64,000 nucleotides of DNA from a virus: IMG/VR virus record IMGVR_UViG_3300005529_001094, positions 1 to 64,000 of that record; one strand, 5' to 3'. A program made the position numbers and the translations under genes. The notes beneath the pieces are model-generated. The model had not been told where the DNA came from and did not search any database. It worked only from the letters and a program-made list of their open reading frames with translations. Positions 2,206 to 63,100 of this stretch are shown here, one piece after another (the first letter of the stretch is position 1; each line of letters begins with the position of its first letter).

Positions 2206-2716
2206 GGGGTACGATTTCACCGGTCGTCGGTTTGGTCGCTTAACCGTCGTGCAACGCTCGGGCTCGCAGCTAACCAGCAGGGCGATTCTCTGGCTCTGCA
2301 AGTGCGACTGTGGCGCCGAGCATCACGTGACATCGAGCGCCCTGCTGCGAGGTACCAAGTCGTGCGGGTGCCTACGGAGAGAAATCGGCACTGTCAAGAC
2401 GCTTTCGCACGGCCACTCGCGGAGGGGGCGCTGGTCGCGCACGTATCACTCGTGGGCGTCCATGATCGAGCGGATCACCTCTGCGAATCCGCGCACCGCT
2501 CCGTACTACCGGGACCGCGGCATTTCAGTATGTGAGCGCTGGCGATCGTTCGAGAATTTCCTTTCCGACATGGGCGAGCGTCCCGCCGGCAGGACTCTCG
2601 ATCGCATCGACCCTAACGGCAACTACGAACCCGGCAATTGCCGCTGGGCTACACCCAGCGAGCAAAGCCGCAACCGCCGCCCGCGCGCGAGGCGGCGAAC
2701 CGAGGAGGCAGCATGA
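2195..2716 (+). CDS. free-standing HNH-type homing endonuclease with N-terminal zinc module
   Basis: A 173-residue protein in two parts. Residues about 5-60 have FTGRRFGRLTVV, then CKCDCG and SCGC, a Cys-rich DNA-binding module. Residues about 85-160 have YHSWASMIERI and LDRIDPNGNYEPGNCRWAT, the HNH-like nuclease core common in phage endonucleases often labelled AP2/HNH. The TTG start at 2195 follows GAGGTG with good spacing and overlaps the end of the nuclease gene. The N-terminal module closely resembles one nested in the terminase intein at 5961-7205. It is probably a selfish homing gene inserted between recombination genes. Confidence 0.85.
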   Translation: MASKGYDFTGRRFGRLTVVQRSGSQLTSRAILWLCKCDCGAEHHVTSSALLRGTKSCGCLRREIGTVKTLSHGHSRRGRWSRTYHSWASMIERITSANPRTAPYYRDRGISVCERWRSFENFLSDMGERPAGRTLDRIDPNGNYEPGNCRWATPSEQSRNRRPRARRRTEEAA

Positions 2717-3669
2717 CGACAGCAGCAGCAGCGGCGCCGCCGGCGCCCCGCCAGAGTCGAATGAAGCTGGCGAACGTCACCAAGGGGCCGCTCCAGCGTC
2801 CGCACCGGATCGCGATCCATGGGGTCGAGGGCATCGGCAAGACGACGTTCGGGGCATGCGCGCCGAACCCCATCTTCCTCGCGTCCGAAGACGGAGCGAG
2901 CCAGCTCGACGTGCAGCGTTTCCCGCAGCCCGAGACCTGGCGCGACGCCCTCGATGCGGTCGCAGAACTCACGAACGAGAAGCACGATCGCCAGACGCTT
3001 GTCGTCGACACGCTCGACTGGCTCGAGCCGATGGTGTGGGCGCATATCTGCTCCGGCACCGACAAGAAGTCGGTCGAGGATTTTGGCTACGGGAAGGGCT
3101 ACGTCAAGGCCGTCGACGAGTGGCGCATCTTCCTCGCTGCGCTGGAGCGAATGCGCGCCGCGAAGCCGATGCACGTCATCCTACTCGCGCACACGAGCGT
3201 CAAGGCGTTCAACAACCCCGAGGGCGAGAACTACGACCGCTATCAGATGAAGCTTCACGCGAGCGCCGCTGCCCTCATTCGGGAGTGGGCCGATGCGGTC
3301 TTCTTCGCGAATCACGAGACCGTCACGCGGAAGGAAAAAGACGAGCGGAAGGCGAAGGGCCTGAGCACCGGCGCGCGGCTGCTTTACACCGAGCGGAGCG
3401 CGGCCTGGGACGCCAAGAACCATTACAACTTGCCGCCCACCCTGCCGCTCTCGTGGGACGACTTCATCTCGGCTGTCGAGAAGCGCGAGGTCGCCGATCC
3501 CGCAGAGATGATCGCGGCGATCACGCAGAACGCCGACCTGCTGCCCGACAGCGTCAAGGCCGACACCCTCGCATCACTCGAGCGCGCCGGCACGGATCCC
3601 ATCAAGCTCGCCCGTCTTCACTCCTGGGTGCTCTCGAAGGTCGCCCAGCGTAACCGCGCGGCGGCGTAG
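2713..3669 (+). CDS. Sak4-like RecA-fold ATPase (single-strand annealing/recombination)
   Basis: A 318-residue AAA/RecA-fold NTPase. Walker A is GVEGIGKT at residues 37-44, and Walker B is LVVDT around 96-100. Downstream come ILLAHTSVK and a conserved region leading to a short helical tail. The length and placement beside a RecB-like nuclease and a probable ssDNA-binding protein match phage Sak4-type recombinases. ATG 2713 is chosen because it follows CGAGGAGGC and overlaps the HNH stop. It likely drives ssDNA annealing or strand exchange in phage replication. Family assignment is from motifs and context, so Sak4 is likely rather than certain. Confidence 0.8.
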   Translation: MTTAAAAAPPAPRQSRMKLANVTKGPLQRPHRIAIHGVEGIGKTTFGACAPNPIFLASEDGASQLDVQRFPQPETWRDALDAVAELTNEKHDRQTLVVDTLDWLEPMVWAHICSGTDKKSVEDFGYGKGYVKAVDEWRIFLAALERMRAAKPMHVILLAHTSVKAFNNPEGENYDRYQMKLHASAAALIREWADAVFFANHETVTRKEKDERKAKGLSTGARLLYTERSAAWDAKNHYNLPPTLPLSWDDFISAVEKREVADPAEMIAAITQNADLLPDSVKADTLASLERAGTDPIKLARLHSWVLSKVAQRNRAAA

Positions 3670-5648: not shown

Positions 5649-8375
5649 ATGGCACGGATTGCCACCGCTCGGTCCAAGATCGACCTCGGACCGTCAATCA
5701 TCGGCGTCATGGAGAACAAGCTTCTCCTGGCGCCGTTCTTCCAGCCCGTCGAGGCGTGGAGGCCTTGGAAAATCTGCCTCTCGGCGATGTTCGGCTTGCC
5801 ACCGCCGAACTACAGCGTCATCGACGCGATCGATGGGAGTGACGAGCCCGAGCGGCTGATCAGCGCGCTCGAGTTCTACCAGAAGCACACCGGCCGGTCG
5901 CAGTGGCCGACGAAGCAGGCGTCGGAGGCCTGGATTCCGACTGGAGTCCGCGGGGGGAAAGCACTCGCGCTTGACACCCCGGTTCCGACACCCGGCGGAT
6001 GGACGACAATGGGCGACATCGCCGTCGGTGACGTCGTCTACGGTCGGGACGGCGCCCCGACGCGAGTCATCGCCACGACCCCCGCCCAGTACGATCGGCC
6101 TTGTTACGAGGTGGAGTTCTCCAACGGGGAAGTGATCGTTGCCGATGCCGAGCATGAGTGGGTCGTCGAGGACTACCGCACGAGGAAGGCCGGGTATCGA
6201 CGACTGCAAGCTCCGCCTAGCCAGGTCGACATCTCGACCCTGAAACCCATTCCCCTCGGGCCGGTCGCGAAAAATCTGACCGGCCAGAAGTTCGGCAAGC
6301 TCACTGCCCTCTACCCGGTCGGCAGGCGAAACCACATGCTCTGGGCAGCACGATGCGAGTGTGGCGGAGCCTGCGTGATCGCCTCGAACAACCTTCAGGC
6401 GCGCAAGCACACATGCGGTTGCGCGGGGCGTGACGCAACGATCGGCGAGCGGACGGTGGTAACCCGCGAGCTGTTCTCGGGGCTACGTGCCCGGAACGGA
6501 CACCAGGGCAACTTCGCCGTCCGACTGCCCGCGGCTCTGCGGTCACCCGAGGCCGAACTACCGATCGATCCCTACGTTCTCGGTGCGTGGCTTGGCGATG
6601 GTCATTCTGCGGGTGGATGTATCACTTCGGCAGACCCCGAGCTGATTGCGGAGATAGGAGCTCGTGGATTTCGCACCACGAAGTGGGCGGCGAAGTACGG
6701 GTACGGGATTCTCGGCCTACACGCCAAGCTCCGCCTGGCTGGACTACTGAAGAACAAGCACGTCCCGCCGGCATACTTGCGCGCTTCAGAGAATCAGAGA
6801 CTCGACCTTCTTCGCGGCCTGATGGACACCGACGGATACTGCTCCGCCGACGGCAAGTGTTCGTTCTCGTCTACGTCGTCCATTCTCGCCGATCAGGTCA
6901 ACGAGCTTGCCTGTAGCCTGGGGTGGCGGTCCGCGGTTTCGGAGGGTGTCGCCAAGCTGAACGGGCGCGTGATCGGTCCCAAGTTCACCGTACACTTCGC
7001 ACCCAAGAAGCCCGTGTTCCTGCTGCCGCGCAAGGCTGCTCGCCAGGTCGTGGGTATGGCACGGTCAGCGAAACGAAGCGGCGCGCGCGACTTCCTGCAT
7101 GTCGTGGAGGTGCGCCCGTGCCCATCGGTGCCGGTCCGCTGTATTCAGGTCGAAAACGACGAGGGGGTTTTCCTGGCGGGCCGGTCCATGGTCCCGACGC
7201 ACAACTCCAGAATCTCCGCAACGATCGCGACGTTCCTCGCGCGCTTCCGCGACTACAGCCCGTTCCTGGCGCCCGGCGAGTACGGCACTGTCATGGTCGT
7301 CGCTGCCGACCGCAAGCAGGCGCGAACGGTCTTCGGGTACATCCGCGCGTTCTTCATGGAGAACGAGCTCCTGCGCGACGAGGTCGAGAGCGAAACGCAG
7401 GAGTCGATCACCCTCAAGAACCGGATCCGGATCGAGGTCCACACCGCAAGTTTCAAGAGCATTCGCGGGTACACCGTGGTCGCCGCGGTCCTCGACGAGA
7501 TCGCGGTCTGGAATTCGGAGGGCGCGAACCCCGACGGCGAAATCGTGACGGCGGTCCGGTCGCGCTTCGCGACGATCCCGTCCGCGATCTTCATGGCGAT
7601 CTCGTCGCCCTACGCGCGCGTCGGCGAGCTGTGGAACGTCTACGACCGCCACTTCGGGGAGAAAGGCGATCCGGACGTGTTCGTCTGGCAGTCGAACACG
7701 CGCTCGATGAACCCGACGGTCACGAAGGAGTTCGTCCGCAAGCAGTACGAGCGCGACCCGGCGCGCGCACGCGCCGAGTACGGCGGCGAGTTCAGGACGG
7801 ACATCGAGAAGTTCGTCCCGCTCGAGATCGTGCGCGAGTGCATGGCGGTCGGGCAGACGCAGATCCCGCCGGCGGCGTCGTGCACGTACCGAGCGTTCGT
7901 CGATCCATCTGGCGGCCGCGGCGATCCGATGGTGATGACGATCGGGCATCGGAGCGGGGACACCGCAATTCACGACGCCACCCTGTCCGTTTCGCCGCCG
8001 TTCGTGCCGCGCGAGGTCGTCAAGCGAATGGTGGAGTTCGCGCGCCCGTACCGCATCCACAAGGTCTACGGCGACCGGTTCGCTGGCGAGTGGCCGCGCG
8101 ACGAGTTCAGGCAGAACGGCATGGAGTACGAGCTGTACTCCAAGTCGAAGTCGGAGCTCTTCGTCGACTGCCTGCCGCACCTGTTCTCGAAGACCGTGAG
8201 GCTGCTCGATGACCCAGAGCTCGCCGTGCAGTTCTCGCAGCTCGAGCGGCGATCGTCACCTTCGGGGAAGGAAATCATCGACCATCCGCCCCACGGACAT
8301 GATGACAAAGCAAATGCAGTTGCAGGTATGGTGCGCCTTCTAATGGGGGAGTCTGCGGTTAGTTGCGTCTGGTGA
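5649..8375 (+). CDS. terL: terminase large subunit interrupted by an intein
   Basis: A 908-residue precursor; removing residues 105-519 leaves a 493-residue terminase, a normal TerL size. The spliced ATPase P-loop reads GVRGGKS, with the intein sitting between the catalytic Lys and Ser. Walker B is VLDE (Asp616-Glu617) and the coupling motif is MAISSP. The nuclease carboxylates are Asp752 (FVDPSGG), Asp809 (YGDRF) and Asp885-Asp886 (HGHDD). The protein cuts and pumps DNA into proheads at the portal encoded next. ATG 5649 has only a weak ribosome site. No classical small subunit lies beside it. The 52-residue HTH protein at 5202 or the KHG-motif protein at 53049 are candidates. Confidence 0.95.
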   Translation: MARIATARSKIDLGPSIIGVMENKLLLAPFFQPVEAWRPWKICLSAMFGLPPPNYSVIDAIDGSDEPERLISALEFYQKHTGRSQWPTKQASEAWIPTGVRGGKALALDTPVPTPGGWTTMGDIAVGDVVYGRDGAPTRVIATTPAQYDRPCYEVEFSNGEVIVADAEHEWVVEDYRTRKAGYRRLQAPPSQVDISTLKPIPLGPVAKNLTGQKFGKLTALYPVGRRNHMLWAARCECGGACVIASNNLQARKHTCGCAGRDATIGERTVVTRELFSGLRARNGHQGNFAVRLPAALRSPEAELPIDPYVLGAWLGDGHSAGGCITSADPELIAEIGARGFRTTKWAAKYGYGILGLHAKLRLAGLLKNKHVPPAYLRASENQRLDLLRGLMDTDGYCSADGKCSFSSTSSILADQVNELACSLGWRSAVSEGVAKLNGRVIGPKFTVHFAPKKPVFLLPRKAARQVVGMARSAKRSGARDFLHVVEVRPCPSVPVRCIQVENDEGVFLAGRSMVPTHNSRISATIATFLARFRDYSPFLAPGEYGTVMVVAADRKQARTVFGYIRAFFMENELLRDEVESETQESITLKNRIRIEVHTASFKSIRGYTVVAAVLDEIAVWNSEGANPDGEIVTAVRSRFATIPSAIFMAISSPYARVGELWNVYDRHFGEKGDPDVFVWQSNTRSMNPTVTKEFVRKQYERDPARARAEYGGEFRTDIEKFVPLEIVRECMAVGQTQIPPAASCTYRAFVDPSGGRGDPMVMTIGHRSGDTAIHDATLSVSPPFVPREVVKRMVEFARPYRIHKVYGDRFAGEWPRDEFRQNGMEYELYSKSKSELFVDCLPHLFSKTVRLLDDPELAVQFSQLERRSSPSGKEIIDHPPHGHDDKANAVAGMVRLLMGESAVSCVW
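5961..7205 (+). other. intein with LAGLIDADG endonuclease and nested zinc module
   Basis: A 415-residue intein (precursor residues 105-519) that begins with Ala rather than Cys/Ser and ends in VPTHN before Ser520. Splicing block A is LDTPVPTPGGWTTMGDI, and block B lies around ADAEHEWVV. The homing endonuclease has two LAGLIDADG helices: YVLGAWLGDG (residues 309-318) and LLRGLMDTDG (387-396). Between block B and the endonuclease, residues 210-258 form a separate module, LTGQKFGKLTAL with CEC (236-238) and CGC (256-258). The same module heads the free HNH endonuclease at 2195. An Ala1 intein usually needs the variant splicing path that bypasses the first acyl shift. Confidence 0.92.
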
Positions 8376-8404: not shown

Positions 8405-9895
8405 ATGGGTCGCCGATCAATGAGTCGTCGTCGCGGAGCCGGGAAGCGAATTCTGAGTGGGCGCGCCGCGCTCGATGTCCTTGGATCGATGTGGGAGTAC
8501 TTCCGCACGTTCGGGGGCGAGCGCGACTACGCGTGCGTGCTCGGCTACAAGCGCGACCTCACGTACGTCGACTACCTCGCGCGCTATGCGCGCGGTGGCA
8601 TCGCGGGGCCGATCGTCGACGTGCCAGCGCGCGCAACGTGGGACACCTTGCCGCGCCTGACGGACGACGAGCTCGGCACCGAGAACGCGCTCTCGAAGAA
8701 GTTCGCCAAGATCGCAAAGGACATCGATCTCCGCCAGAACCTCGAGAAGGTCGATCGACTCGCCGGCATCGGGCGCTACGCCGTGTTGCTGCTCGGATTC
8801 CGCGACGGCAAGAGGCTCGAGGAGCCAGTCGATGAGGACGGCGCACGCGATGGCGGAATGCTCTACGTCGCGCCGTTCAGCGAGGCGAACGCGCGCCCCG
8901 TCGAGATCAATCTCGACTCGCAATCTCCGGAGTTCGGACGTCCGCTGCTCTACGAGATCGACTTCGCGCGCGGCGCGCTCGACATGGACCCGCTGATCAA
9001 GGCGACGTTCCTTCAGCGGCTGACCGGGACGGGTGGCTCCAACCGGATGACGCAGAAGGTTCACGCCTCGCGCATCGTGCACATCGCCGAGGGCACGCTC
9101 GAGGACAACCTCTACGGAACGCCGCGCCTCCGTCGCGTGTGGGATCGCCTCGACGACCTCGACAAGATCTCCGGTGGAAGCGCCGAGGTGTTCTGGTTGG
9201 TCGCGAATCGCGGCCTGCAATTCGACGTGAGTCCAGAGGTCGCGTTCGGCGAGACCGAGAAGGAAGCTCTCCGCGAGCAGATCGAGTCCTATCGCCACGG
9301 TCTCAGCCGCGAGATCCGGACGCGCGGCGTGACAATCAAAGGATTGAACGAGCTCGGCGCGGGCAATGTTAATCCGTTCGCCGTGTTCCGCGTGCTCGCC
9401 GCGCTGATCACGGGGACGACCGGCTTGCCGTATCGAATGATCTTCGGCACCGAGCGCGGACAGAACACGACGAGCCAGGATCGTCGCTCGTGGCTAGAGG
9501 ACGTCTGGTCGCGCCGCGAGACGTACGGCAACGAGGTCGTGCTCACGCCCCTCGTCCGCCGCCTCGTACATGCCGGCGTACTTCCAGTGAAGGCGCTCGA
9601 TGCGCAGGTGATCTGGCCGCCGGTTCACGACGATATGTTCCAGGCCGAGGTCGCCGACACCTACGCGCGCGCCGACTTCAACCGCAGCAAGGCGAAGAGC
9701 TCGCCGGGCGGATCGTCGATCGGCGAGGGCGAGTGGCGCGAGAAGTTCCTCAACCTTCCGCGCGAGATGCCGAAGGGCGACAGCCGCGAGGACGTCTCGA
9801 CTCCGACGCCAGAGCCCGTGGCGCCGGCTTCTACGTCGCCCGGAGCGCCCCCCGGAGCGCCCACGGCCCAGGAGGACCAGCGTGCTGCCGCGTGA
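8405..9895 (+). CDS. portal protein (DUF1073 family)
   Basis: A 496-residue portal. The DUF1073-type core is seen in GYKRDLTYVDYLARYARGGIAGPIVD near residue 45, HASRIVHIAEG near 222, and a long helical clip region. The conserved GLPYRMIFGTERGQNTTSQDR segment lies near 340-360. The last 60 residues are a Pro/Ala-rich linker. Portals form the dodecameric DNA gate at one capsid vertex and dock the terminase encoded upstream. Start 8405 or 8420 are equally possible because neither has a ribosome site. The 3' end overlaps the next gene. Databases often associate this family with Acb1-like 2H phosphoesterases, and the next gene begins with a 2H domain. Confidence 0.9.
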   Translation: MGRRSMSRRRGAGKRILSGRAALDVLGSMWEYFRTFGGERDYACVLGYKRDLTYVDYLARYARGGIAGPIVDVPARATWDTLPRLTDDELGTENALSKKFAKIAKDIDLRQNLEKVDRLAGIGRYAVLLLGFRDGKRLEEPVDEDGARDGGMLYVAPFSEANARPVEINLDSQSPEFGRPLLYEIDFARGALDMDPLIKATFLQRLTGTGGSNRMTQKVHASRIVHIAEGTLEDNLYGTPRLRRVWDRLDDLDKISGGSAEVFWLVANRGLQFDVSPEVAFGETEKEALREQIESYRHGLSREIRTRGVTIKGLNELGAGNVNPFAVFRVLAALITGTTGLPYRMIFGTERGQNTTSQDRRSWLEDVWSRRETYGNEVVLTPLVRRLVHAGVLPVKALDAQVIWPPVHDDMFQAEVADTYARADFNRSKAKSSPGGSSIGEGEWREKFLNLPREMPKGDSREDVSTPTPEPVAPASTSPGAPPGAPTAQEDQRAAA

Positions 9896-11126
9896 CCCCG
9901 TCGAGGCCGCGATCGAGTCGGCGATGTACTATCGCCTGACGCACGCGGACGCCGACGTGGAGCACACCGGCGTCATGGTCGCGCTCGTGCCCCGCGCCGA
10001 GGACGCCGCGCGTCTCGCGCTCGACGGCGGCGAGGCGGCCGAGGATCTCCACGTGACGCTGTTCCACTTCGGGGACGCGAGCGCGATGCCGATCGAGGCG
10101 CGACGCGACCTGATCGACACTGTCCGAATGGAGGCTTCGCAGTTTACGCCGCTCCTCGGCGCCGCGTTCGGGGCGGGCGTCTTCAATCCGACGGGTCCAA
10201 CCCCGTGCCTCATCCTCAACATCGGCGGCGAGGCCATCGAGCAGTTCCACCGGGCGCTCTGGTGGATGCTCCCCGAGTCGCCTGACCAGCACCGTCCGTG
10301 GGCCGCGCACCTAACGCTCAAGTACTTGACCGAAAAGGACAACGTGCAGGTCTTCCCGGCCACCGAGAAGATGGTCCCGCGCATGGGCGAGCTCGTCTTC
10401 GACCGCGTGCGGGTCGCGTTCGCGGGCGCAGCGATCGACATCCCGTTCGCGACGGAGTCGCCCGAGGTGCTCGCGGCCCAGCGGTCAGCAGACGTCTACC
10501 GGGCCACGCGGACGCTGCTCGCTGCGCGCGGCGCGGCCCCGCCGGCACCGATGCCGCGCGTGGTGTCGTTCCGGGTCGCGTCCGCCGTCAAGGTCGACGG
10601 CGACCAGATGACGTTCCCGGTCGTCGCTGCGGTCGAGGGTGTGCGTCGGCCGATGGGCTCGCTCGGCCCCGAGCTCGTGCTCGCGAGCCAGCTCGCAGCC
10701 GGGCTCGATAGCGCCCAGGAGATGCCGGTCGTGTTCGACCACCCAGCACTGGCGGACGGCAATCCCGAGGTGGTCTCTGTCGACGACGAGCGGCCGTTTC
10801 GGGAGGGGACGGGCGTCCGGGTCGGGACCGTCGCCAACGCACGGATCGAGGGCGACCGCATGATGGTCGATGCGACCGTGAGCATCTCCGCTCTGCGGTC
10901 TGCGGGCCCCGGGAGTTCGGCGATCGCCGACGCGCTTCTCGCCGGCCAGCAGACGGAGGTCTCTGTCGCGTACGCCGCGCGCATCGTAGCCGCCAACAGC
11001 ACCTTCGGCGGGGTCGCCTACACGGGCGTCCACATGGACATCACGTTCGACCACCTAGCGCTTCTGCCGCCGGGCGTGCCGGGGGCGTGTAGCCTCGGTG
11101 ACGGCTGTGGCGCGGCGCGCACCTAG
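9882..11126 (+). CDS. 2H phosphoesterase fused to DUF2213 prohead protease
   Basis: A 414-residue two-domain protein. Residues about 25-180 carry two HxT motifs, His57-Val-Thr59 and His143-Leu-Thr145, each followed by hydrophobic residues. This is the defining pair of the 2H phosphoesterase superfamily, whose members cut cyclic or 2'-5'-linked nucleotides and include phage anti-CBASS Acb1 and LigT/ThpR. Residues about 230-410 resemble DUF2213 capsid maturation proteases: VVFDHPA, GTGVRVGTVANARI, QQTEVSVAYAARIV, DITFDHLALLPPGVPGA. A GGAGGA ribosome site precedes the GTG start inside the portal gene. Cleavage during prohead maturation could release the 2H domain. The substrate of the 2H domain is unknown. 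Confidence 0.82.
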   Translation: MLPRDPVEAAIESAMYYRLTHADADVEHTGVMVALVPRAEDAARLALDGGEAAEDLHVTLFHFGDASAMPIEARRDLIDTVRMEASQFTPLLGAAFGAGVFNPTGPTPCLILNIGGEAIEQFHRALWWMLPESPDQHRPWAAHLTLKYLTEKDNVQVFPATEKMVPRMGELVFDRVRVAFAGAAIDIPFATESPEVLAAQRSADVYRATRTLLAARGAAPPAPMPRVVSFRVASAVKVDGDQMTFPVVAAVEGVRRPMGSLGPELVLASQLAAGLDSAQEMPVVFDHPALADGNPEVVSVDDERPFREGTGVRVGTVANARIEGDRMMVDATVSISALRSAGPGSSAIADALLAGQQTEVSVAYAARIVAANSTFGGVAYTGVHMDITFDHLALLPPGVPGACSLGDGCGAART

Positions 11127-11182
11127 CGAAACATCAAACACCGTTTGCTGCAAAGTTGGAATCGCGATAAAGGCCCTGGTGT

Positions 11183-11221
11183 TAGGTCGATCGATCGATT
11201 CAATCGAACGACCGTTTGAAC
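11183..11221 (+). repeat. late-operon intergenic repeat, copy 2
   Basis: TAGGTCGATCGATCGATTCA followed by AATCGAACGACCGTTTGAAC. It matches copy 3 at 20476 at both ends (TAGGkCGATCGATTGA and CGTTTGAAC) and copy 1 at its left part. It sits 35 nt before the ATG of the scaffold-like gene. It has the same orientation as the genes, so it is a candidate promoter or operator. Confidence 0.5.
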
Positions 11222-11256
11222 GGCGCGGGACGCGCGGGACGAGGGAGAGACGGCAC

Positions 11257-11919
11257 ATGGACAAGGCGGGCACGATCGATCGGCTGATCGCCTCGGGGAA
11301 GTACAAGGACGAAGCACGCGACTGGCTGAGCAAGCTCGCCGACGGGCAGCTCGCCGAGATCGCTTCGGCGTCCGGTTGCAGCTGCGAGGGGGCGCCCGCG
11401 GGCGCTTCCGCTTCCGGCGACGGCAAGCCCGCGCCGGTGGCGGCCGCGTCTGCGGGCGGCGACAAGACGCCCGAGACTCAGGCGACGCCGACTGCGGCCG
11501 CGGCATCGACCGCGACGCCCGCGCCGGCGACAGCAGCGGCCGAGGCGCCGGCGACGTCGGCGCCCGCCGCTGCATCCACGCAGACTCCGGTCGCGGCCGC
11601 GAAGCCGCTGACCGATGCGGAGTGGCTCGCCGCGGCGCCGGCTGGCGTTCGTGAGGAGCTCGAGGATCTCCGCCGGGAGCGCGCCGCGAAGGAGAACACG
11701 CTCCGCGAGAAGATCGCCGCCAACAGCGGCGGCAAGCTCTCGAAGGAGTTCCTCGCGAGCAAGGGCCTCAAGGAGCTCGAGGTGCTCTACGCCGCGACGA
11801 TCCCGGTCGACCAGAGCGGGCGCGGCACGTCCGGCGATGCCATGACGGCGGCCGCCGCGGGCGACAAGAACAAGAACGAGACGCCGCCGATGCCGGCGTG
11901 CGACTTCAGCAAGGCCTGA
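11257..11919 (+). CDS. probable scaffolding protein
   Basis: A 220-residue protein with a helical N-terminus (residues 1-45), a long low-complexity Ala/Pro/Thr region (about 55-120) and a charged coiled-coil-prone C-terminal third (ELEDLRRERAAKENTLREKIA). It lies between the prohead protease and the capsid genes, the usual place for a scaffold. ATG 11257 follows GAGGGAGAG and is the natural start. Scaffolds hold capsid subunits during prohead assembly and are then degraded or expelled. The assignment is by position and composition, not by homology. Confidence 0.6.
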   Translation: MDKAGTIDRLIASGKYKDEARDWLSKLADGQLAEIASASGCSCEGAPAGASASGDGKPAPVAAASAGGDKTPETQATPTAAAASTATPAPATAAAEAPATSAPAAASTQTPVAAAKPLTDAEWLAAAPAGVREELEDLRRERAAKENTLREKIAANSGGKLSKEFLASKGLKELEVLYAATIPVDQSGRGTSGDAMTAAAAGDKNKNETPPMPACDFSKA

Positions 11920-11984
11920 ACGGATCCCGGAGAGGGAGATCATCGGCGGCCTAGTGGCCGCGCGGAGTGGAGGCGGAGGCGGAT

Positions 11985-12458
11985 ATGGCAGCGAGGAAGG
12001 TCGTTCTCTACGGGATCGCGACGCAGGTCGGCGAAGGCACGGTCGCGGGTGGCACCATCACCCCGGGCGATCTCCTTGCGCGCTCGTCCGCGACGCAGAT
12101 GATTCGCCACGGGAACGCCGGGCGAAACCACGCGTTCCTTTTCGCGGACAACGTTCCGGACCGGAACAAGGGCATCGACGACGACTACAGCGCGAACGAC
12201 AACGTCCGGGTAGTCGTGCCGACGCGCGGCGCGATCATGAACGCGAACCTCGCCGCGAACGCGGCCGCGGTCGCGATCGGCGACGCACTCGAGTCGAACG
12301 GCAACGGCAAGCTCCGCAAGCACACGCCGCAGGCCGTCAACGAGGGCGGCGCCGCGTCCTACACGATCTACGCCGAGGCGATCGTCGGGTACGCGCTCGA
12401 GGCCATCGACAACTCGGCCAACGGCTCGCCCGTTCGGATCCGCGTCGAGATTCGCTGA
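11985..12458 (+). CDS. probable capsid decoration/head-fibre protein
   Basis: A 157-residue, beta-rich, Ala/Gly/Asn-rich protein with GEGTVAGGTITPGDLL at the N-terminus and ALEAIDNSANGSPVRIRVEI at the C-terminus. The pattern resembles DUF2190-like capsid decoration proteins that precede major capsid genes. ATG 11985 follows GGAGGCGGAGG. An in-frame GTG at 11967 would add six residues. It should bind the outside of the capsid lattice and stabilise it. Confidence 0.6.
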   Translation: MAARKVVLYGIATQVGEGTVAGGTITPGDLLARSSATQMIRHGNAGRNHAFLFADNVPDRNKGIDDDYSANDNVRVVVPTRGAIMNANLAANAAAVAIGDALESNGNGKLRKHTPQAVNEGGAASYTIYAEAIVGYALEAIDNSANGSPVRIRVEIR

Positions 12459-12524: not shown

Positions 12525-13592
12525 ATGATCGGGGACTTCAAGGCCCTCGCCGCTTCGGGCGGCATGGGCGGTTTCGGATCGAGGCTGCTCGCGCACGGCC
12601 TCAACGCCGAGAAGGCACTGCGCGCGAACTCGCCGCTTCTGATCGACGAGCAGGTCGTCGTCGACCAGCGTGTCATTCGGGAGTTCATGCCGCGGCTCGG
12701 CGTCATCGCGCGCCTGATCCAGAACGGGCAGTGGACGCGCCTGAGCAACCCCTTCGCCGTCGAGTCGCTCCGCCACTACACGATGAGCGACACGTCGGGT
12801 GCCACGCTCGATCGGAACCCGACGAAGCGGACCGAGGGCGACCTGCCGGACAAGACCCCGGTCTACACGCCGGTCTACTACGGCTTCGCCAACTTCCAGC
12901 TCGGCATCCAAGAGCTCCTCACTTCGCGCAAGGGTCTCCTGCCGCTCGACCTCACCCTCATCGGCCAGAAGGCGCGCGATCTCGCCGAGGCATTCGAGGA
13001 GTCGGTCATCCGCGGCACCGTCGGCGGCGTCGCGCTGCCGCAGTGGGGCTCGGCGGTCGCGAAGGGCATCCTCAACGCCCCGAACATCCACGGCGTCCAG
13101 TACGAGGGCGGCAAGCCGTGGGACGACCCGACGAAGACCGTCGCGGGCATCCTGACCGACGTCAAGGCGATGTTCGCCGCGCTCGACGCGGACTTCGCCT
13201 ACGGCGCGGTCGACCTGCTTGTGCCCCAGGCATGGTTCAACGCGCTCTCGTTCCTCACGAACACCGCCACCGACCGGACGGCGATGTCCTTCCTCAAGGA
13301 GCTCGAGCGCGGCGGACAGCCGCTCCACATCCAGGCGGCCGACAAGCTGCCGGCGAACACCGCCCTCATGTACGTTCGATCCTCTGACGTCTTCGAGGTC
13401 GTCGTTGGCGACTTCGGCGGCTCGGCGGACGATCCGATCAACGCGCCCGACAAGAACCCGGTCCCGATCACGGTCTTCCACTGGGACGAGCAGGCCGGGC
13501 TCATGCTCAATTTCAAGCTGCTGGGCTGCGTGATCCCGCGGGCGAAGGCCACGTACGGCAGCAAGAGCGGCATCGCCAAGCTCACGGCGTAA
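12525..13592 (+). CDS. major capsid protein (HK97-like fold)
   Basis: A 355-residue protein of the length and layout of an HK97-type coat protein. It has a helical N-arm (residues 1-60), an extended loop (SDTSGATLDRNPTKRTEGDLP, about 88-108), a spine-like helix (GQKARDLAEAFEESVIRG) and a C-terminal beta-sheet domain (DVFEVVVGDFGG to PITVFHWDEQAG). It follows protease, scaffold and decoration genes. The ribosome site GGGAGG precedes ATG 12525. A strong hairpin follows the gene, as expected for the most abundant protein. The exact capsid family is not resolved. Confidence 0.88.
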   Translation: MIGDFKALAASGGMGGFGSRLLAHGLNAEKALRANSPLLIDEQVVVDQRVIREFMPRLGVIARLIQNGQWTRLSNPFAVESLRHYTMSDTSGATLDRNPTKRTEGDLPDKTPVYTPVYYGFANFQLGIQELLTSRKGLLPLDLTLIGQKARDLAEAFEESVIRGTVGGVALPQWGSAVAKGILNAPNIHGVQYEGGKPWDDPTKTVAGILTDVKAMFAALDADFAYGAVDLLVPQAWFNALSFLTNTATDRTAMSFLKELERGGQPLHIQAADKLPANTALMYVRSSDVFEVVVGDFGGSADDPINAPDKNPVPITVFHWDEQAGLMLNFKLLGCVIPRAKATYGSKSGIAKLTA

Positions 13593-41456: not shown

Positions 41457-41656
41457 AGAAGCGAATCGACATCAAGGATCTCCGGAAGAAGCTCAAGCTC
41501 ACGCAAGAAGAGCTCGCCCGCGAGCTCGCGGTCACGGTCTCGACCGTGAACCGGTGGGAGAACGGACACTCCGGTCCGAGCAAGCTCGCGCTCCGCTCGA
41601 TCGATGCCCTGTGCGACAAGCACAAGGTCGTGCCGACGGAGCTTCCGGCGGCGTAA
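41453..41656 (+). CDS. XRE-family helix-turn-helix regulator
   Basis: A 67-residue Cro/CI-type HTH: LRKKLKLTQEELARELAVTVSTVNRWENGHSGPSKLALRSI. The T-Q-E-E-L-A turn and S-T-V-N-R-W-E-N-G recognition helix are visible. It consists of the DNA-binding domain alone, without a dimerisation or protease domain, so it is Cro-like rather than CI-like. The element TTGACAAAATCAA lies upstream of its operon. Confidence 0.8.
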   Translation: MKKRIDIKDLRKKLKLTQEELARELAVTVSTVNRWENGHSGPSKLALRSIDALCDKHKVVPTELPAA

Positions 41657-41669
41657 CGAGGAGGTGGTG

Positions 41670-42971
41670 ATGATGTGGGTGCCACGGACGGCACTTCTGG
41701 CGGCGGTGGCGATCGCGCTCATGGGCGCACGCACGCCGACGAACGACGAGTACGCGCTGCTGGTTCTGGCGAATCAGTCGCGCGCGAACCCCGCAGCGGA
41801 CGGCGGCACCGAACCGGTCGTCCCGCCGATGCGATGGAGCGATCAGCTCGCGGCAGCCGCACAGGCTCACACCGACGACATGGTCGCGCACACCTACCCC
41901 GGGCACACGTGCTTTCAGCATAACTCCTGCAACGGACAGCTCTGGTCGACGCGCGTCGGGAGCTTCTATCCTGGCTGGGCCTGGCTCGGCGAGAATATCG
42001 GCTCCGGGCTGAACGACCCGCGCTACATGCACACCGGATGGATGCGATCGCCCGACCACCGAGCGAACCTGCTCTCGGGTGCGTTCAACGACTTCGGCTC
42101 CGCGTTCGGCTCGGCCACGGACAACTTTGGGCCGCTCCCGCTCGCGACAGAGGATTTCGGCAGCAAGGGCCTCCTGTCGCTCGGCTCGAGCGCGTACCCG
42201 ACAATCCCGGCCGGCGCGGCCGTGCTCGGGGCTGGTGCCGGCACGCACGAGCTGATCGTCAACTACTGGCACTACCACGGCGGCCCGCCACAGATGGTCG
42301 TCGCGATCCTCGGCGACGAGTGCGTGCCGATGGCGCTCAATCAGGGCACACCGACGCACGGCACCTATCACGCGTTCCGGACATGGTTCGACTGCACGCC
42401 GTTCGCCTTCCAGGCGGTGCGCTCGGACGGCGTGGTGGTCCGCTGGCCCGCGGTCGGCGGTATCATTGCGGGCGACAGCGACGCGAGCTGCGTGCCCTAC
42501 AGCGCGACCCGGCCAACGAAGGACTGCTTAGGGCCCAGCTCCACGCCGGCGCCCGGCGCCACGCCGACCCCGACGCCCGTCCCGATGCTCGGGCACGTGC
42601 GCTTCACCGCCCGCGATCACGACACGACAGGCCGCGACTACGTGCGCCTGGTGGTCGACCTCCCGAGGTTCGACCCGGCGGGCGTGAGCATCGGCCTCTT
42701 CGTCAAGCTCAACGGCACCGACTACTGGAGCGCACAGATGCCGGTCCTCGCGCCCGACCAGAAGCGCCGCGCGTGGCGCACGAGGGGCGCGTCGCTGCGG
42801 CCCACGGGGGCTGGCTATCGCCTGTACGTCACCCAGACCGCGGCCGAGGTCGCCAGGCCGCGCCCCGGCGTGGTCGATCTCACCGTGTCGCTCCCGATGG
42901 GTGATCTCACTGCGCGCGCCGCGGCGATCGTTCACGGACACTCCGTCACCGCCTCGAGGGCCGTGTTGTGA
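41670..42971 (+). CDS. secreted CAP/SCP-domain protein with Pro/Thr linker
   Basis: A 433-residue protein with a signal peptide (VPRTALLAAVAIALMGA). A CAP domain occupies about residues 25-200: ALLVLANQSRANPAA, AQAHTDDMVAHTYPGH, WLGENIGSGLNDP and GWMRSPDHRANLLS carry the conserved His/Glu residues. A beta-rich middle follows, then a linker of TPAPGATPTPTPVP and a C-terminal beta domain (about 310-433). Bacterial CAP proteins are extracellular and may act on envelope or host molecules. In a phage this is unusual and could be a lysogenic-conversion or superinfection factor. GAGGAGGTGG precedes the ATG. Confidence 0.8.
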   Translation: MMWVPRTALLAAVAIALMGARTPTNDEYALLVLANQSRANPAADGGTEPVVPPMRWSDQLAAAAQAHTDDMVAHTYPGHTCFQHNSCNGQLWSTRVGSFYPGWAWLGENIGSGLNDPRYMHTGWMRSPDHRANLLSGAFNDFGSAFGSATDNFGPLPLATEDFGSKGLLSLGSSAYPTIPAGAAVLGAGAGTHELIVNYWHYHGGPPQMVVAILGDECVPMALNQGTPTHGTYHAFRTWFDCTPFAFQAVRSDGVVVRWPAVGGIIAGDSDASCVPYSATRPTKDCLGPSSTPAPGATPTPTPVPMLGHVRFTARDHDTTGRDYVRLVVDLPRFDPAGVSIGLFVKLNGTDYWSAQMPVLAPDQKRRAWRTRGASLRPTGAGYRLYVTQTAAEVARPRPGVVDLTVSLPMGDLTARAAAIVHGHSVTASRAVL

Positions 42972-60907: not shown

Positions 60908-63100
60908 CTACAGCAGCGGTTTCCCGACGAGCGACGCCGGCGAGTAGCCCCAGACGCGCACGCCCTCGATGCGCCGCTGGTAGCGCATCCACCCGAGTTC
61001 GCGCAGGCACGCCGCAACCGAGGTCATCGCGTTCTGCGTGATCTTGTCGCGATCCATCGCGATCTTCGATTCGGTCAGGATTTCGGCGACGGTCGCCCAC
61101 TCCTTCGCCCGCAGGTACTGCGCCACGAACGGGAGCCAGGGCTCCTGAACGCGCCGCGCCTGCTGCTCTTCGCCGGCGAGTTCCTGGCCTTCGCGGTCGA
61201 GCCACCATGGCTCGCGCGCGCGGTATCGAGCCACCGCCTCGGCCCACAGCTGATCGCGGTCCTTTTCCAGTGCCGCGAGATTCAGGCGTCGGCACCGGAC
61301 GGGCCAGAACCGCCGGTTGCCGGTATGGTCGCGGAGGTACGTGTCGTGGTTCGACGTGCCGACGAAGATGCACTGACGCGGATGATCGCCGGTGACGCGC
61401 TCGAACGGCGCGCGGTAGCGGTCGATCTGGATCGTGATGAACTGCTTGACGCGCTCGGCATCGTGCTTCGAGATGCCGGCGAGCTCGCCCCACTCGACGA
61501 TCCAGACACCGGAGAGTGTGAGCTGCGAGTCCTTCGACTCGAGCGACGGGAGGTGATCGGAGAACCAGGGGCCCGCGAGAATCCGGAGGGCCTGCGACTT
61601 GCCCTGACCCTGGTCGCCCTCCAGCACCGGCATCGTATCGACCTTGCAGCCGGGGTCGAAGACGCGCGCGACCGCCGCGATCATCCACGCCGCGCCGACG
61701 CGCTGGGTGTAGCCGGTGTGCTCAGCGCCGAAGTAGGCGGCCAGCATCGTGTCGAGCCTCGGCTCGCGGTCCCACTCGAGGGACGACAGATAGTCGCGGA
61801 CGGGGTGAAATGATCTCTCTTGCGATGCGGCGATCACCGCCTCGAGGACGGACTCCTTCGGGAGCGCTAGCTTCTTGAAGAGTGAGAGCCAGTGCTTGAC
61901 GTAGGTCGTATGCTTGTCTTCGTAGTAGCCGGGCGTGCGCGGCTTCCTCATGCCGATGATTGGCGGCGGCGCCTTTGTCCAGTACGCGCGGTCCGCGAAC
62001 TCACTCCAGGCAAAGACACCCTTCCACTCGTCGAGGTGCGCGAGCATAAGGGCGGCGTTGCCTGCCTCCTTCGTCACACGCCGCTCTTCATTTTGGCGGA
62101 GTGACTGACGCCAGTCAGGCTCGAGCTCCGTTGCGTCAGAATCCGAGGTGGCTTTTTGAGCTTGCGCCTGCGTCACTTCCGTCGCGATGCGCTTCGCGTG
62201 GGCGGGGAGCTGCTCGAGGACCTCGGCCTGCGTGCGGTGCGAGCAGTGGCTGTGGCTACAATGGAACCAGCCGCGGACCTCGCCGGCGTTCGGGGCGAAG
62301 ACGACCGTCGAGCCGTCGTACGCCTCGCCGACGGTGTGCTCGCTCAGCCAGGGGCAGAGGACCGCGGCGGTGCCGGGGGCCCTGTTGATTCCGAGCCAGC
62401 CGGCGGCCTGGAAGGCCTTTCCCATAAAGCCGTCGGTCACGGCGGAGAGCGAGGCCTCGAACTCGCGATCCTCCGAGGCGAGGCGATCGGTGACCCACGC
62501 CGGGCACTTCGCGATTTCGAGATCCTCGGGGTGGTGATCGGTCTCCCACTCGTAGTACTTGCCGCTCGCGTGCAGTGACGGCGGGGCGACGACGTACCCG
62601 CCCTCTCCGCGGATGTCGATCGCGCCCGGGACGAGCGCCTTCTGTTTCAGCTTGTCCTTGACGTTGTCCGGCTTCTTGAAAATGTAGTGCACGCCGCCGC
62701 CGCCAGTGAGCGATTGCACCGTCTCGGGCAGCTTGCCGTACTTCGCCTCGAGCTCGCGGAGCGCGGCCATGCCGTCGACGTTGTGCATGTCGACGTCAAG
62801 GACGACGAGGTTCTTGCACCAGATGCCGATGTTCGCGAACGGCCGCTTCTTCCAGAGAACCTTGATCTGGTCGGGGTCGATCGTGCCATCCTTGAATCCG
62901 TTCGGGGTCGCCGGGTGCTTCCCGGGGTTCGAGCACTTCCCGGTCTCCGCGCGCGTCTTCGAGTTGTGCGGGCACGTGCAGTCACCCTTCGCCTTGTCGT
63001 ACTCGAAGACCGGGAAGACGTAGAACCCGTATCGCTTCGCCAGCTCCGTCGCGAGGATCTCGGTACCGACCCTTCCCTTCGCCTCCTCACTCACTCGCAT
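60908..63100 (-). CDS. PrimPol primase fused to VapE-like SF3 helicase
   Basis: A 730-residue replication protein. The N-terminal 200 residues form a bifunctional primase/polymerase (PrimPol) domain: NIGIWCKNLVVLDVDMHNVDG with the D-x-D pair and GGGVHYIFKKP with the catalytic His, plus a Cys/His zinc region (CTCPHN, CSNPGKH) near residue 40. A linker with FHCSHSHCSH follows. The C-terminal 350 residues are a VapE/D5-type SF3 ATPase with Walker A EGDQGQGKS and GVWIVEWGELAG as the B motif region. It likely primes and unwinds phage DNA at the origin. It overlaps the VRR-NUC gene by 10 nt. Confidence 0.9.
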   Translation of the reverse strand: MRVSEEAKGRVGTEILATELAKRYGFYVFPVFEYDKAKGDCTCPHNSKTRAETGKCSNPGKHPATPNGFKDGTIDPDQIKVLWKKRPFANIGIWCKNLVVLDVDMHNVDGMAALRELEAKYGKLPETVQSLTGGGGVHYIFKKPDNVKDKLKQKALVPGAIDIRGEGGYVVAPPSLHASGKYYEWETDHHPEDLEIAKCPAWVTDRLASEDREFEASLSAVTDGFMGKAFQAAGWLGINRAPGTAAVLCPWLSEHTVGEAYDGSTVVFAPNAGEVRGWFHCSHSHCSHRTQAEVLEQLPAHAKRIATEVTQAQAQKATSDSDATELEPDWRQSLRQNEERRVTKEAGNAALMLAHLDEWKGVFAWSEFADRAYWTKAPPPIIGMRKPRTPGYYEDKHTTYVKHWLSLFKKLALPKESVLEAVIAASQERSFHPVRDYLSSLEWDREPRLDTMLAAYFGAEHTGYTQRVGAAWMIAAVARVFDPGCKVDTMPVLEGDQGQGKSQALRILAGPWFSDHLPSLESKDSQLTLSGVWIVEWGELAGISKHDAERVKQFITIQIDRYRAPFERVTGDHPRQCIFVGTSNHDTYLRDHTGNRRFWPVRCRRLNLAALEKDRDQLWAEAVARYRAREPWWLDREGQELAGEEQQARRVQEPWLPFVAQYLRAKEWATVAEILTESKIAMDRDKITQNAMTSVAACLRELGWMRYQRRIEGVRVWGYSPASLVGKPLL

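Follow-up and report, generated by a model that had tools for sequence, protein, structure and literature searches.

A 2H phosphoesterase domain fused to a DUF2213 head-maturation-protease-like domain in a viral head operon

The window analyzed here, positions 1 to 64,000 of the IMG/VR virus record IMGVR_UViG_3300005529_001094 (a contig of 71,302 bases), carries among its head genes a gene (9882-11126, + strand) whose 414-residue product joins an N-terminal 2H phosphoesterase domain to a C-terminal DUF2213 domain, the latter similar to phage head maturation proteases. The fusion is real, far beyond chance, since relatives of both halves were confirmed in IMG/VR: at least 293 for the 2H half and at least 42–73 for the protease half. 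All counts derived from IMG/VR scans refer to searches by motif patterns, with the best 80 or fewer loci taken from each. Other phage head proteins were also seen to carry 2H domains, in several protease families as well as in portal and MuF proteins.

The fusion gene and its two domains

The gene and its parts are as follows.

9882..11126, +, 2H phosphoesterase-DUF2213 fusion gene, 414 amino acids, GTG start (Pfam, PHROGs)
9870..9875, +, Shine-Dalgarno sequence AGGAGG of the fusion gene, within the 3′-terminal part of the portal gene
9960..10445, +, 2H phosphoesterase domain, residues 27-188 (PF13563, AlphaFold, Foldseek against the PDB, local hidden Markov model (HMM))
10050..10058, +, first HxT motif, His57-Val-Thr59 (sequence)
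10308..10316, +, second HxT motif, His143-Leu-Thr145 (sequence)
10446..10607, +, interdomain linker of ∼50 residues, partly Ala/Pro-rich, a possible cleavage region (sequence, linker lengths)
10608..11123, +, DUF2213 head-maturation-protease-like domain, residues 243-414 (PF09979, alignments)
10740..10742, +, His287, invariant among DUF2213 relatives, candidate catalytic residue (alignments)
10962..10964, +, Ser361, invariant, candidate nucleophile (alignments)
11049..11054, +, Asp390-His391, invariant, candidate catalytic residues (alignments)

Translation from the GTG at 9882, which falls within the final codons of the portal gene and follows the AGGAGG with a spacing of six bases, gives the open reading frame (ORF), strand and frame that an earlier note on this DNA, made without database searches, had assigned. 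The two-domain layout proposed in that note was borne out as well: both Pfam matches exceed the curated cut-offs, 2_5_RNA_ligase2 (PF13563) at residues 44-153 with 29.3 bits (cut-off 27) and DUF2213 (PF09979) at residues 273-401 with 30.2 bits (gathering cut-off 22). In PHROGs, residues 20-205 matched families labeled ‘RNA ligase’ (8e-27) and ‘head maturation protease’ (2e-18), and the C-terminal half matched head-protease families. The guanine-cytosine content by codon position (0.73/0.45/0.91 in one half of the ORF, 0.75/0.55/0.88 in the other) indicates a similar coding signature throughout. A chance ORF or a misread fusion is ruled out by the independent homologues of each half, the uniform coding signature and the ribosome-binding site.

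The fold of residues 1-205 was predicted with AlphaFold from an alignment of 59 2H domains (that of the window and those of IMG/VR loci); the mean predicted local distance difference test score (pLDDT) was 90.5 and the predicted template modeling score (pTM) 0.83. Comparison of the model with known structures was a check set beforehand, and the predicted fold did match 2H enzymes. Strands 58-65 and 143-148 each begin at one of the two HxT pairs, whose positions are exactly those given in the earlier note. Leading Foldseek matches in the PDB at E≤1e-3 were largely named 2H enzymes: PH0099 of Pyrococcus, Usb1 of human and of yeast, LigT of E. coli, a phosphodiesterase of Burkholderia phage BCSR5, the penguinpox cyclic GMP-AMP (cGAMP) phosphodiesterase, AKAP18 and a plant cyclic phosphodiesterase; the few trypanosome mitoribosome chains in the list were of AKAP7 type.

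By profile, the nearest solved sequences were of the LigT/2′-5′ RNA ligase type (1iuh, 1.1e-6; 1vdx, 8e-6; 5h7e, 1.6e-5) and the Acb1 entries were marginal (9q2g, 0.013; 7t26, 0.073). Acb1 of T4 (57B) and of FBB1 has the 2H fold and the HxT/HxT tetrad in common with the window domain; however, it is a small stand-alone protein, the window protein had no match to Pfam Acb1 (PF23474) at E≤1, and hhalign gave T4 57B a probability of 43%. Some phage-head 2H relatives match Pfam Acb1 weakly. Among the top 50 Foldseek matches the FBB1 enzyme (7t26) was absent; the BCSR5 enzyme, which bears the chain name Acb1 in the PDB, ranked 5-6. LigT, an RNA 2′,3′-cyclic phosphodiesterase, provides the closest fold and profile matches, but the window domain scores far below the cut-off of the LigT equivalog TIGR02258 (21.4 versus 65.7 bits) and is attached to a phage head protease. 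Thus, going by predicted fold and motifs, the N-terminal domain is a 2H enzyme with profile affinity closest to the LigT type; with LigT-type neighbors and marginal Acb1 scores, it is by sequence no member of Acb1, and its substrate is not readable from similarity. The earlier note had connected the DUF1073 portal family, represented by the gene upstream, with Acb1; a tie of this family to 2H domains does exist, as one IMG/VR locus (L340) encodes a DUF1073 portal with a C-terminal 2H domain, but for the domain in the window a tie to Acb1 is not supported at sequence level. In phage T4 itself the Acb1 gene 57B adjoins ipI, the gene of an internal protein packaged in the head (T4 73,591-74,410; positions 2592-3411 of locus L344).

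Across 183 aligned 2H domains His57, Thr59 and His143 were near-invariant. Position 145 was Thr or Ser in 90/90 loci of a later set; in mostly actinophage loci it was Cys in 36/93 and Ala in 5/93. The expectation that homologues would retain both HxT pairs therefore mostly held: His57 and His143 are kept in nearly all of them, and the second Thr is lost in part of that actinophage group. These motif counts are partly built in, as two of the 2H scans had HxT in their search patterns; on the other hand, all 10 2H fusions from the DUF2213 and portal scans, made without 2H, had HxT/HxT intact. The variants belong to a MuF-type 2H branch (L002, L014, L020, L045 and other mostly Streptomyces-type loci) with H-x-C or H-x-A as the second motif; it keeps Tyr148 and may have altered chemistry or lost catalysis.

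In the C-terminal half, His287, Pro288, Ser361, Asp390, His391 and several glycines were invariant in 60 aligned DUF2213 relatives; from this conservation we infer that His287, Ser361 and Asp390-His391 are the likely catalytic set. Comparisons by hhalign of DUF2213 with HK97 gp4 and with the XkdF domain of phage Salgado detected no similarity, and this half is called a putative protease on the basis of PHROG annotations, gene position and conserved residues.

Recurrence and separate origins of 2H fusions

A whole-protein search of IMG/VR found no close relative of the fusion, and initial HMM passes returned the window only. Iterated profiles and additional loci gave other examples, which rules out that the window fusion is unique. 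Of 141 DUF2213 ORFs collected independently of 2H, 10 have such a domain (4/86 after removal of close copies); a scan of genome contigs gave eight DUF2213 loci, 0/8 with 2H. The IMG/VR fusions came in two arrangements: 2H-DUF2213-scaffold (L169, L170, L172-L175) and DUF2213-2H-scaffold (L157, L158, L159 and L216, plus L336 from the 2H scan). Like the window, these loci have both domain families in one ORF with intact HxT pairs, and Pfam found both domains in those scanned, the 2H match being below the cut-off in L158 and L159; unlike the window, they have a 2H domain of another clade, the domain order is reversed in one set, and the scaffold is still fused C-terminally.

More generally, solo 2H proteins shorter than 300 amino acids were rare: 8 among the 183 2H ORFs surveyed, with some contigs retrieved twice. 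In 55 further 2H representatives Pfam identified Phage_portal (15), MuF (8), Mu-like protease I (7), Mu portal (5), Peptidase_S78 (4), DUF1073 portal (2) and a few capsid domains. Fusions of 2H with XkdF were found in 12 other ORFs, including gp18 of Arthrobacter phage Salgado and gp7 of Microbacterium phage ValentiniPuff. Besides DUF2213, at least three head-protease families (XkdF, S78, Mu-I) are therefore joined to 2H, and the position of the 2H domain varies freely among the fusions. A close relative of the window 2H domain was also seen fused to a zeta-toxin-like kinase domain (L022, 2842-4359; 2.1e-19).

The 2H tree puts the window within a mainly actinophage clade (support 100), apart from every other DUF2213-linked 2H domain. 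A single clade of all DUF2213-linked 2H domains that includes the window was rejected (approximately unbiased test, p-AU 2.7e-5), whereas a single clade of the remaining ones, with the window left out, was not (p 0.16). In the protease tree the window sits on a long branch and the question of origin is not settled there. The trees were quick searches with Shimodaira-Hasegawa-like approximate likelihood ratio (SH-aLRT) support only. Three loci, L017 (among the nearest by identity to the window 2H), L025 and L037, have the 2H domain within head maturation proteases of another family. Because the one-clade constraint was rejected, the 2H-DUF2213 pairing, as far as these trees indicate, arose at least twice, in addition to the joining of 2H to proteases of the XkdF, S78 and Mu-I types. 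Such a recurrent pairing suggests that phages package these enzymes in their particles.

The nearest named head module is that of the Brevundimonas phages StAshley and MaInes (portal 36%, major capsid protein 27%, DUF2213 30%). These phages differ from the window in having no 2H domain and in having the protease and a C-terminal scaffold in a single 568-amino acid protein. As the scaffold part of the StAshley protein resembles the product of the gene next to the window fusion, in the window lineage the 2H domain would have been added N-terminally, with the scaffold encoded separately.

Some of this was known. That 2H domains on MuF and portal proteins are injected effectors, either RNases or degraders of alarm nucleotides, was proposed by Iyer et al. 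(2017, PMC5512222). The window fusion shares with their polyvalent proteins the joining of a 2H effector domain to a component of the virion and a place among the head genes, one of the features of that class; its partner is, however, a DUF2213 head maturation protease, and the 2H passages of that paper name MuF and portal as the only partners, with no mention of protease fusions. Members of PHROG 14859 (Salgado gp18, ValentiniPuff gp7) have the size and layout of the window protein, N-terminal 2H and C-terminal head protease; unlike in the window, the protease is of XkdF/Peptidase_S78_2 type, and the proteins are labeled just ‘RNA ligase’ or ‘capsid maturation protease’. The 2H-protease fusion is not discussed in the passages found in the Microbacterium phage paper on ValentiniPuff. 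Injected 2H effectors on MuF and portal proteins and the 2H-XkdF layout are thus already known; new, relative to the openly accessible literature searched, are the fusion to DUF2213, its occurrence in both domain orders and the evidence that it arose separately.

The head operon and other genes of the window

The genes around the fusion form a head operon in the order portal, 2H-DUF2213 fusion, scaffold, decoration and major capsid protein.

8405..9895, +, portal protein, Phage_portal_3, formerly DUF1073 (Pfam 96.9 bits, cut-off 33.8; PHROGs)
11257..11919, +, probable scaffold gene, ATG at 11257 (blastp 8e-5 to the C-terminal part of the StAshley DUF2213 protein)
11967..12458, +, head decoration protein (PHROG 766, 2.6e-7)
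12525..13592, +, major capsid protein (PHROG 264; match to Brevundimonas phage major capsid protein)

The portal gene upstream, which overlaps the fusion gene, is of the family that the earlier note had named. The frame of the probable scaffold gene is open from 11098 (11098-11919) and so overlaps the end of the fusion gene; the best start is the ATG at 11257. The haloarchaeal virus Hardycor1 has relatives of the window portal (35%) and of the major capsid protein (23%); otherwise the capsid protein matched only Brevundimonas phages in a search of the phage collection.

Elsewhere in the window, the large terminase gene (5649-8375) appears to be interrupted, seemingly at the Walker A motif, by an intein that includes a LAGLIDADG endonuclease domain, with junctions ..GVRGGKA / LALDTPVPTPGG ... 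VPTHN / SRISA..; 41604-42971 encodes a 455-amino acid protein with a CAP/SCP-family (cysteine-rich secretory protein) domain (PF00188), and 60908-63100 (- strand) a 730-amino acid Prim-Pol primase fused to a VapE-like helicase.

Possible roles of the fusion protein

Our tentative reading, to which we give somewhat less than an even chance, is that of a two-enzyme head protein whose 2H half is a packaged and injected cargo cleaving a nucleotide, most likely a defense alarm signal. The DUF2213 half would act as the head maturation protease, joining the procapsid together with the separately encoded scaffold and processing it. The 2H half would enter the procapsid through its covalent tie to the protease and could be released by cleavage in the linker; kept in the virion, it would reach the next cell alongside the DNA and there hydrolyze a nucleotide phosphodiester.

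The main argument for a functional link between 2H and head proteins is that they have been joined repeatedly. Packaging is made plausible by gp24 of phage Pa193, a protein with a match to the DUF2213 profile (residues 118-168, 4e-4) and a scaffold segment, but for which no 2H domain is reported: gp24 was detected in mature virions by liquid chromatography-mass spectrometry (LC-MS), and cryo-electron microscopy resolved part of it at the inner five-fold vertices, though its authors were unable to tell if it is cleaved (PMC11042391). Taken with the frequency of 2H fusions to head proteins, the presence of gp24 in virions also makes delivery more plausible. A nucleotide defense signal is favored as the substrate because phage and poxvirus HxT/HxT enzymes cleave cGAMP (PMC9117128; PMC11410667) and because phage 2H domains of this kind, according to the 2H passages of Iyer et al. 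(PMC5512222), were never associated with RNA ligases.

Several observations weigh against this reading. As many as 131/141 DUF2213 ORFs have no 2H domain; the loss of the second Thr in some actinophage relatives indicates that catalysis is not selected everywhere; and among solved sequences the nearest belong to RNA 2′,3′-cyclic phosphodiesterases rather than Acb1, so that, from sequence affinity, an RNA substrate is equally arguable. Action on RNA is indeed a serious rival, though we consider it somewhat unlikely: with virion carriage unchanged and alarm nucleotides untouched, the 2H domain would open 2′,3′-cyclic phosphate ends left by host anticodon nucleases, or be delivered as a Usb1-like RNase. 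The best solved-sequence matches (1iuh, 1vdx, 5h7e), the high Foldseek ranks of PH0099, Usb1 and LigT and the RNase option of Iyer et al. for MuF- and portal-fused domains are consistent with it, whereas the missing association with RNA ligases and the low LigT equivalog score argue against it.

One could also speculate that the domain works late in infection: the head protease would set off the cyclic oligonucleotide-based antiphage signaling system (CBASS), and the fused 2H nuclease would destroy the signal at its source. The Bas13 prohead protease was reported to activate a CBASS cyclase, as related in later papers, and repeated fusion of 2H to several unrelated protease families would agree with such coupling. 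However, portals and MuF proteins are fused to 2H equally often, so the fusions may have a reason other than the protease, and CBASS activation by DUF2213 proteases would be an analogy with other proteases; we regard this as quite improbable. Even less probable, in our estimate, is a non-enzymatic part in head assembly such as binding of nucleic acid or of head proteins. The change of the second catalytic Thr to Cys or Ala in ∼40% of actinophage-type relatives and the freely variable domain position would fit it, but both HxT motifs are preserved in the window protein and in every DUF2213 fusion from the scans made without 2H, and close relatives of the protease build heads with no 2H domain at all.

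A broader proposal, an unlikely one by our estimate, is that unrelated head-protease families repeatedly captured 2H domains since the protease triggers a nucleotide-signaling defense, or since it offers the safest entry into the capsid; the 2H-proteases would then make up a general class of anti-signaling enzymes, virion-borne or coupled to the trigger, in which the window fusion is an independent origin. Whatever the reason for it, the recurrence across several protease families marks out a set of proteins for testing and links the 2H enzymes that defeat CBASS with the head proteases that activate it. If the 2H domain is both active and packaged, an enzyme destroying the signal would enter the cell with the DNA, ahead of all phage gene expression, having gained its entry by attachment to a protein obliged to enter the head. 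The database labels would also be corrected, since ‘RNA ligase’ and ‘capsid maturation protease’ each cover half of such a protein.

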